Shown in pieces: positions 8,106 to 9,336 of a stretch of 64,000 bases of DNA. Source of the stretch: Polynucleobacter sp. AP-Kolm-20A-A1. Lineage in GTDB: Bacteria; Pseudomonadota; Gammaproteobacteria; Burkholderiales; Burkholderiaceae. Numbering within the stretch: position 1 is the stretch's first letter; each line of letters opens with the position of its first letter. Location of the stretch: positions 682,001 to 746,000 of the forward strand of contig NZ_CP061315.1 of the NCBI RefSeq assembly GCF_018688315.1, in the 5' to 3' direction. Both the position numbers and the translations under genes were made by a program. The notes beneath the pieces are model-generated. The model was not told where the DNA came from, did not search any database, and saw only the letters and a list, made by a program, of their open reading frames with translations.

Positions 8106-8816
8106 ATGAATCAGGATCAACTTAAGCAAATGGTGGGTGAGGCGGCTCGCGACGAGGTTCTCAAACTCTCGGCCGGCCAAATATTAGGGGTGGGCACTGG
8201 TTCTACCGCCAATTGCTTTATCGATGCTCTAGCGCCCCATAAGGACCATTTCGCGGGCACGGTTTCCAGTTCAAATGCCACCACTGAACGCTTGCTAAAG
8301 CATGGCTTCAAAGTGCTTAACCCGAATGATGTGGTGAGCTTGCCTGCATATGTCGATGGCGCTGATGAAATTGATCCAGCTGGTCACATGATTAAGGGTG
8401 GGGGTGGAGCCCTTACTAGAGAAAAAATTATCGCCTCTATGGCCAAGCAATTTATTTGTATTTGCGATTCCTCAAAGCAAGTGCCTGTATTGGGGAACTT
8501 CGCGCTGCCCGTAGAAATTATTCCGTTGGCCCAGGGTGTTGTCACTAGAGAGCTAGAAAAATTTGGTGGCAAGGTCAGCTTGCGCCTAGCAAAAAATACT
8601 CGCCCCGATTTAGATCAAGCCCCAAGTGAACCTTTTGTAACGGATAACGGTGGCTGGATATTAGATGTAGCGGGATTAAAAATTTCAGACCCACTGAATA
8701 TGGAGTCGCAGATTAATCAAATCGCTGGCGTCATCACTGTCGGACTATTTGCAAAAGAGAAGGCCAACATTCTGCTGGTTAGTAATGCAGCTGGCGTTGA
8801 AAGAATTGCGCTTTAG
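8106..8816 (+). CDS. rpiA: Ribose-5-phosphate isomerase A
   Basis: Interconverts ribose-5-phosphate and ribulose-5-phosphate. The family motifs are in order: GVGTGSTANCFIDAL (phosphate loop, about residues 28-42), VDGADEIDP (catalytic Asp/Glu region, about 83-91), KGGGGALTREKI (about 97-108) and TDNGGWILD near residue 180. At 236 residues it is slightly longer than the E. coli enzyme. It is divergently paired with tal. A strong hairpin terminator starts 10 bp after the stop codon. Confidence 0.97.
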   Translation: MNQDQLKQMVGEAARDEVLKLSAGQILGVGTGSTANCFIDALAPHKDHFAGTVSSSNATTERLLKHGFKVLNPNDVVSLPAYVDGADEIDPAGHMIKGGGGALTREKIIASMAKQFICICDSSKQVPVLGNFALPVEIIPLAQGVVTRELEKFGGKVSLRLAKNTRPDLDQAPSEPFVTDNGGWILDVAGLKISDPLNMESQINQIAGVITVGLFAKEKANILLVSNAAGVERIAL

Positions 8817-8821
8817 GCATT

Positions 8822-8852
8822 AAAAAACCCGACGGGGTATCCCCATCGGGTT
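8822..8852. terminator. Bidirectional intrinsic terminator after rpiA
   Basis: A 12-bp stem with one mismatch (AACCCGACGGGG, loop TAT, CCCCATCGGGTT; 8826-8852). On the plus strand the tail GTTTTG is short. On the minus strand the hairpin is followed by six T residues (8827-8822), so it is the better terminator for minus-strand transcription arriving from 8979. Confidence 0.9.
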
Positions 8853-8979
8853 GTTTTGCCATGGTTTGCATGGCGCAGGCGCTCGGAAGGTATTTAGTTC
8901 CTTAGCCTATAAGCACATAGATGCGCTTATTTGTAATGGCTTTCGCCAATGTGGCAGCGCACTCTAACTGCATCGCCAC
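8822..8979 (-). ncRNA. Candidate structured small RNA, about 158 nt, family not recognised
   Basis: The region between yggX and rpiA has no plausible protein, yet the minus strand has a complete transcription unit: a sigma-70 promoter, closely packed hairpins and a T-tailed terminator. The hairpins in order are GTGGC/GCCAC with inner GCA/TGC (8979-8951); TGGC-GAAA-GCCA (8948-8937); a 9-bp stem ATAAGCGCA/TGTGCTTAT with a 4-nt loop and one G-U pair (8930-8909); a weaker AAGG/CCTT hairpin (8903-8887); GCCATG/CATGGC (8874-8858); and the terminator. I could not match it to 6S RNA, tmRNA, RNase P RNA, SRP RNA or a riboswitch. It could also be a structured 3' region of the yggX transcript, but the internal promoter argues for an independent RNA. 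Confidence 0.6.
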
Positions 8980-8985
8980 GACTTC

Positions 8986-9014
8986 ATCCTATGCCTCAAT
9001 ATTTTTAGTGTCAA
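8986..9014 (-). promoter_or_regulatory. Near-consensus sigma-70 promoter of the candidate small RNA
   Basis: On the minus strand TTGACA (9014-9009) is followed by a 17-bp spacer and TAGGAT (8991-8986), i.e. 6/6 and 5/6 consensus matches at ideal spacing. The predicted start at about 8979 falls on the first base of the first hairpin. It lies 50 bp downstream of the yggX stop. Confidence 0.7.
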
Positions 9015-9063
9015 CAATAAGATGATATGTTTTTAGGGATTTGATGCTGTGCCGCAATAACAA

Positions 9064-9336
9064 TTACTCTGCTGGCGGTACATAGCCTTGCGCCATGTCT
9101 GCACCACCTTCAAAGAAGTACTTTTCCACTTGCTTTAAAAGGTATTGGCGTGCACGTGGGTCTGCCATGTTGAGACGATTTTCATTGATCAACATGGTTT
9201 GTTGTTTTAACCAGGCAGCCCAAGCTTCTTTAGATACCTGATTCCAAATCTTTTTGCCAAGCTCACCAGGAAGTGGGGCGAAATCCATGCCCTCAGCTTC
9301 TTTATTTAGTTTGATGCATTGAACCATGCGTGCCAT
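9064..9336 (-). CDS. yggX: YggX family Fe(II)-trafficking / oxidative damage protection protein
   Basis: A 90-residue cytoplasmic protein linked in enterobacteria to iron handling and protection of Fe-S clusters from oxidants. The conserved N-terminal [15 protein letters not shown] (with the family's single Cys), the central [15 protein letters not shown] and DPRARQYL segments and the overall length all match. AAGAAAGGC lies 7-15 bases upstream of the ATG. It follows argA on the same strand with a 32-bp gap, so the two are probably one transcript. Confidence 0.95.

Follow-up and report, generated by a model that had tools for sequence, protein, structure and literature searches.

HRC-28-1 of Polynucleobacter as a probable free-standing small RNA gene with a conserved promoter of its own

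On the minus strand between yggX and rpiA, the genome of Polynucleobacter sp. AP-Kolm-20A-A1, a member of a genus that is among the common freshwater bacteria, carries a structured RNA that is judged to be the published motif HRC-28-1. Comparison of homologous sequences indicates that HRC-28-1 is very probably an autonomous small RNA (sRNA) gene, with its own promoter and terminator, producing an RNA of ~158 nt with five hairpins. The window referred to throughout is the whole stretch of DNA that was analysed, 64,000 nucleotides in length, and the positions given are those of the window.

Identity and relation to known RNAs

Brewer et al. (2021, RNA Biol., PMC8632094) reported HRC-28-1 from 33 unique examples, mostly in Polynucleobacter, with a PRK05408 gene upstream, rpiA downstream in the opposite orientation, and six stems, the last of which is apparently an intrinsic terminator; it was suggested to be a structured 3′-UTR element of the upstream gene. 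The RNA in the window is judged to be the same motif on the basis of this published description, because host, neighbours, orientation, six stems and terminator agree. The Polynucleobacter host, the PRK05408 gene upstream and the opposed rpiA downstream all recur here, as do the six stems if the two stacked helices of H4 are counted as one. The initial annotation had regarded the RNA as a candidate new one, which does not stand against this account of an already reported motif; its reading of a structured RNA with its own promoter does. In contrast to the 33 examples and the 3′-UTR proposal in that paper, the present analysis reveals a conserved promoter belonging to the RNA itself, matches in 127 of 186 genomes of the genus, and relocated and divergent copies.

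The search of Rfam that had been recommended was performed with release 15, and returned no credible family for the RNA either at gathering score or at E up to 10, the latter giving six weak matches. 6S RNA (RF00013), also a small RNA and of similar size, had been excluded in the initial annotation, and rightly so, as it has no match here and the source genome (G000) has its 6S match, of 58.6 bits, at another locus (G000:C1:1383572-1383790). 6S RNA is one long bulged hairpin, whereas the RNA in the window is a chain of separate hairpins. The anti-hemB RNA, Burkholderia RNA 7 (RF02837), is similar in having a hairpin followed by a C/G-rich terminator, but its match is weak (19.2 bits, against a gathering score of 49.5 bits) and is confined to the 3′ end (8819-8887). 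Name and host group are shared with Polynucleobacter-1 (RF01718; Weinberg et al. 2010), which gave no match in the window at gathering score, nor within 8780-9070 at E up to 10. In the open-licence literature, one paper was found to name HRC-28-1, no functional study of any Polynucleobacter sRNA was found, and searches for other sRNA work on this genus brought up none on the HRC-28-1 RNA.

Promoter, terminator and fold

The features of the locus are collected in Table 1. The two promoter hexamers are separated by 17 bases and match 10 of 12 consensus bases. With its predicted start at 8979, where H1 begins, the RNA would be 158 nt long. Scanning and folding confirmed what had been noted from the letters of the minus strand, namely a sigma-70 promoter (TTGACA, 17, TAGGAT), five hairpins, a T6 terminator, and a start coinciding with the first hairpin. 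The promoter match alone is weak evidence, with seven promoter-like sites in the scanned region versus 4.2 in shuffles, and it is conservation across homologues that counts. The promoter pattern TTGAC-N12-16-GCATAGGAT occurs once in the whole genome, at the HRC-28-1 locus, and the covariance model likewise finds a single copy of the RNA in the source genome. As the scan gave no terminator between yggX and the RNA at the rpiA site, read-through from yggX is possible there. The terminator hairpin (8826-8852) is a palindrome, and transcription of rpiA on the plus strand may end there too.

Table 1. Features of the HRC-28-1 locus, in window positions
Feature	Position	Strand	Basis and remarks
rpiA	8106..8816	+	NCBIfam NF001924; convergent neighbour downstream of the RNA
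HRC-28-1 small RNA, ~158 nt	8822..8979	-	fold, homologues, covariation, literature; start predicted
Intrinsic terminator: 12-bp hairpin (8852-8826) and U tract (T6 run)	8822..8852	-	scan, fold
H5: 6-bp stem GCCAUG/CAUGGC	8858..8874	-	fold, covariation
H4: two short stacked stems; loop with adjoining pyrimidine run	8877..8908	-	fold, covariation
H3: 9-bp stem, loop region AUCUAU	8909..8930	-	MFE fold; double changes in 5/8 modelled pairs (A1)
H2: 4-bp stem, GAAA tetraloop	8937..8948	-	MFE fold
H1: 10 pairs, loop region CAG-N5-GUG	8951..8979	-	MFE fold; double changes in 5/10 pairs (A1)
-10 hexamer TAGGAT	8986..8991	-	sequence scan; preceded by partly conserved AGGCA
-35 hexamer TTGACA	9009..9014	-	sequence scan
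yggX (PRK05408 oxidative damage protection protein)	9064..9336	-	NCBIfam NF003817; neighbour upstream of the RNA

The whole RNA has a minimum free energy of -68.1 kcal/mol, compared with a shuffled mean of -44.4 (z -6.7), and none of 200 shuffles folds as low; with the terminator removed, z is -3.4 and none of 300 shuffles folds as low. The RNA strand had been thought to hold no plausible protein, and this was borne out by the homologues, in which the longest ORF ranges from 11 to 39 codons across 65 distinct RNAs, which are themselves 149 to 175 nt long and often differ by 1-2 nt.

Conservation extends to the loops. Among the 65 distinct RNAs, the H1 loop pattern YRG-N5-GYG is found in all, a GNRA loop closed by three Watson-Crick pairs at H2 in 59, the H3 loop AUYYNU in 64, and the loose H4 pattern RAC-N3-9-YYYYY in 62. 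The short copy L084 is the sole miss for H3, its AUCUAU lying outside the searched span, and its miss for H4 is likewise due only to the span. This copy, at the rpiA site of G181 (2500-2648), lacks the GAAA hairpin H2 and keeps the other hairpins. The pyrimidine run of H4 resembles an anti-Shine-Dalgarno loop; it is half paired in the fold, hence no open seed, and no long conserved unpaired stretch was seen in the RNA.

Covariation

Compensatory changes were sought in A1, a MAFFT alignment of 23 copies including that of the window, which was not fitted to the structure. The copies of A1 were picked by a script requiring a loosely defined promoter and terminator (the first form of the search expression gave 16 copies, and a looser spacer gave 23), so this alignment was not used for the claim about the promoter. 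It excludes L023, at a contig end, and L025, the second piece of G016; L001 and L048 both represent the copy in the window.

RNAalifold on A1 gave 47 pairs, 18 of them with double changes, and the removal of one isolated pair left 46 pairs in seven helices. The share of pair cells that are paired was 98.7%, versus 93.2% in shuffled and 34-40% in slid alignments, and double changes occurred in 18 of the 46 pairs and 75 cells, versus 9.5 and 24.2 when shuffled; none of 500 shuffles reached the paired share or these counts. A count of further pair types was closer (41 versus 36.9), and was reached by four of the 500 shuffles. Double changes are present in H1, H3, H4 and H5, and are absent in A1 from H2 and from the terminator, 99.6% of whose cells are paired. 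Both H2 and the terminator acquire them in a wider set, A3 (82 rows, 77 distinct), in which 35 of the 46 pairs have double changes, this set being fitted to the model and so leaning towards it. Taken from sequence comparison, these results support an RNA structure backed by evolution, and the covariance model with its compensatory changes in relatives, which the initial annotation had called for, came out in favour of its proposal.

Conservation of the promoter

The promoter was examined in 71 rows (65 distinct), none chosen by promoter pattern: the window itself, 22 BLAST rows for which the query included the promoter, 29 top-scoring and 18 divergent rows from the promoter-free covariance model R1, and L153 from a second model, R2. 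The rule, set after the data had been seen, called for TA...T in the six bases directly ahead of the model, at least five of six bases of TTGACA, and a spacer of 16-18. It held in 64 of the 65 distinct copies, with a spacer of 17 in 47 and of 16 in 17, and at none of 16,510 other upstream positions. The -10 box is exactly TAGGAT in 58 of the distinct homologues and TA...T in 64. Even among the 19 divergent loci (L071-L078, L081-L090 and L153), 18 retain the promoter, the sole copy without it being L153 (G175), the most divergent of all. Together, covariation and promoter conservation strongly support the earlier proposal of a discrete structured small RNA with a promoter of its own. Upstream of the -35 box, AATAAATTTCATGA occurs in five of the seven loci L072-L078 (not L073 or L078), and is perhaps a regulator site or UP element.

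Distribution

A DNA search of 61 genomes (the source genome, 36 of the same genus and 24 of the same order) found matches in 24, including the source, all within the genus. In the 13 genomes of the genus that had no DNA match, rpiA was found in every case, and in 12 of these yggX is its neighbour, the aligned ends being separated by 1 to 122 bases, which leaves no room for the RNA; in the remaining one, G032, no yggX was found near rpiA. Over all examined genomes without the RNA, yggX is near rpiA in 24 of 25, G032 again being the exception. G011, which had no DNA match and has an empty rpiA site, carries the RNA at another locus. Its yggX (L027, 1204-1474) is split into two aligned parts, in different reading frames, close to a T run, which may be a frameshift or a sequencing error.

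With R1, 128 of 186 genomes of the genus were matched at E <= 0.001, of which the matches in G116 and G128 were dropped as consisting of the terminator only. In both genomes the RNA is gone and such a terminator hairpin is retained. R2, built with divergent copies, found the RNA in 127 of 186, with best matches of at least 50.7 bits, the match in G022 being cut at a contig end and that in G175 being new. Weak matches on the opposite strand, which reflect the terminator palindrome, were not counted. R2 gave no match in 59 of the 186, two of them inside the clade that uses the rpiA site, so the RNA is not essential to the genus. It is also present in the 1.55-Mb genome G017.

Outside the genus, R1 matched nine genomes of other genera at 25-30 bits among 398 genomes of the family, and R2 ten genomes at 25-35 bits among 399 of the order, samples that overlap and include the genus. 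Five of these 19 weak matches were inspected; they align mainly via the terminator, and each overlaps a listed ORF (short ones only in the case of L156). None of the matches was counted as a homologue, with nothing convincing among the five inspected. An exact-pattern scan with one genome per species gave 62 contigs, all from Polynucleobacter or from betaproteobacterial/Burkholderiaceae MAGs, using a pattern that contains TAGGAT and so favours copies with that box. Viral contigs had no match to the exact pattern, and plasmids and phages had none by blastn.

Relocated copies and history

The RNA was initially placed between yggX and rpiA, which is true of the window and of 67 of the 82 copies in A3, but elsewhere the RNA is found away from rpiA in 12 genomes. 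The 15 off-site rows of A3 come from 11 genomes and reduce to 12 distinct loci, since three are present twice; in the remaining genome, G161, whose copy is not among the A3 rows, ~220 kb separate the RNA from rpiA. The neighbours vary from locus to locus: azlD with a LysR gene at L071, genes for a PIN-domain and a polyketide-cyclase-like protein at L072, a radical-SAM/HemN_C gene with a solute-binding protein at L081, and TctC and HD-domain genes at L082; one of the ORFs flanking L083 had no Pfam match, and at L153 an opposite-strand ORF of 124 codons overlaps the RNA match. At L071, L082 and L083 the nearest upstream ORF, counting those of at least 60 codons, is oriented away from the RNA, so that these copies are not positioned to be transcribed from the upstream gene. 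Only in G166 did scanning the genus give two strong matches, L081 and L082, which are divergent copies at different loci; they are 77% identical over 129 bases within the RNA, and their flanks show no longer match.

A tree of RpiA from 64 genomes, based on one gene and rooted only for drawing, unites all 28 included genomes with the RNA at the rpiA site in a supported group (99/94) of 31 rows, which also holds G116 and G128, without the RNA, and G011, with the RNA elsewhere. The next group, of 16 rows (100/94), has nine relocated copies and seven genomes without the RNA, and the third, of 17 rows, has 16 genomes without it, plus G175. This suggests a single settlement at rpiA followed by losses, a single-gene tree being no proof. 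Only one clade uses the site by yggX and rpiA, and the link to these genes goes no further.

Proposed mechanism and alternative explanations

In the proposed mechanism, transcription from the sigma-70-type promoter of the gene would end at its own terminator to give the ~158-nt RNA, as the comparison of homologues indicates. The RNA would act in trans, because promoter, hairpins and loop patterns are kept as its genomic place varies. Hfq, which is encoded in the source genome (PF17209, 103.5 bits), could hold the U-tailed terminator, and the conserved loops, of the AUCUAU type in H3 and pyrimidine-rich in H4, might pair with mRNAs, perhaps near ribosome-binding sites. Post-transcriptional regulation through this Hfq and base-pairing step is put forward tentatively, at somewhat below an even chance, and the full explanation, an autonomous trans-acting gene with Hfq-type regulation, as an evenly balanced proposition. 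A ProQ client and a CsrA sponge (a CsrA/RsmA-titrating sRNA) were both rejected for the source genome, in which neither ProQ/FinO (PF04352; positive in one of 14 control genomes) nor CsrA (PF02599; positive in three of 14) had a match.

The main competitor to mRNA pairing is that the RNA binds a protein through its loops, as a decoy, scaffold or core of a ribonucleoprotein. This is a serious rival, because half of the H4 pyrimidine run is paired; conservation does lie in stems and short closed loops (65/65, 59/65 and 64/65 for H1 to H3), and the absence of a long conserved unpaired stretch fits protein binding about as well as base-pairing. CsrA, the best-known decoy target, was however not found in the source genome, 6S is a different gene, and L084 has dispensed with H2 yet keeps its remaining hairpins, and on balance protein binding is considered somewhat unlikely. 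The published alternative (Brewer et al. 2021, PMC8632094), a structured 3′-UTR element stabilising or processing the yggX mRNA, agrees with the position of the RNA close downstream on the yggX strand and with the lack of a scanned terminator between them at the rpiA site. It is nonetheless quite improbable, given that 64 of 65 distinct copies have a promoter exactly where expected, that copies in 12 genomes do not adjoin rpiA, three of the loci having a divergent upstream ORF, and that yggX persists near rpiA in nearly all examined genomes without the RNA.

A ribozyme or metabolite-sensing element, the former having been raised in the initial annotation, would suit several hairpins with conserved loops, including the GNRA-type tetraloop in 59 of 65, but in the window the gene that follows the RNA, rpiA, runs in the opposite direction, and no ribozyme or riboswitch is among the six weak Rfam matches at E up to 10; with nothing found to support it, such a role is highly unlikely. 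That the locus is a mere terminator region with chance hairpins could draw on the palindromic terminator hairpin, which alone yields weak matches on both strands and survives without the RNA in G116 and G128. This is almost certainly wrong, being already contradicted by covariation, with double changes in H1, H3, H4 and H5, and by the stable fold of the core without its terminator.

Conclusions

HRC-28-1 thus very probably joins a promoter, a chain of hairpins and a terminator in one gene. A bolder picture, which is unlikely, is of an sRNA gene that is confined to the genus, relocates, and conserves patterns in its loops instead of an open seed; it would constitute a new class of structured bacterial RNA, and possibly the core of an uncharacterised Polynucleobacter RNA-protein particle. 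If HRC-28-1 is indeed a free-standing gene, it would be its targets in trans and its protein partners that matter, and not the control of yggX.
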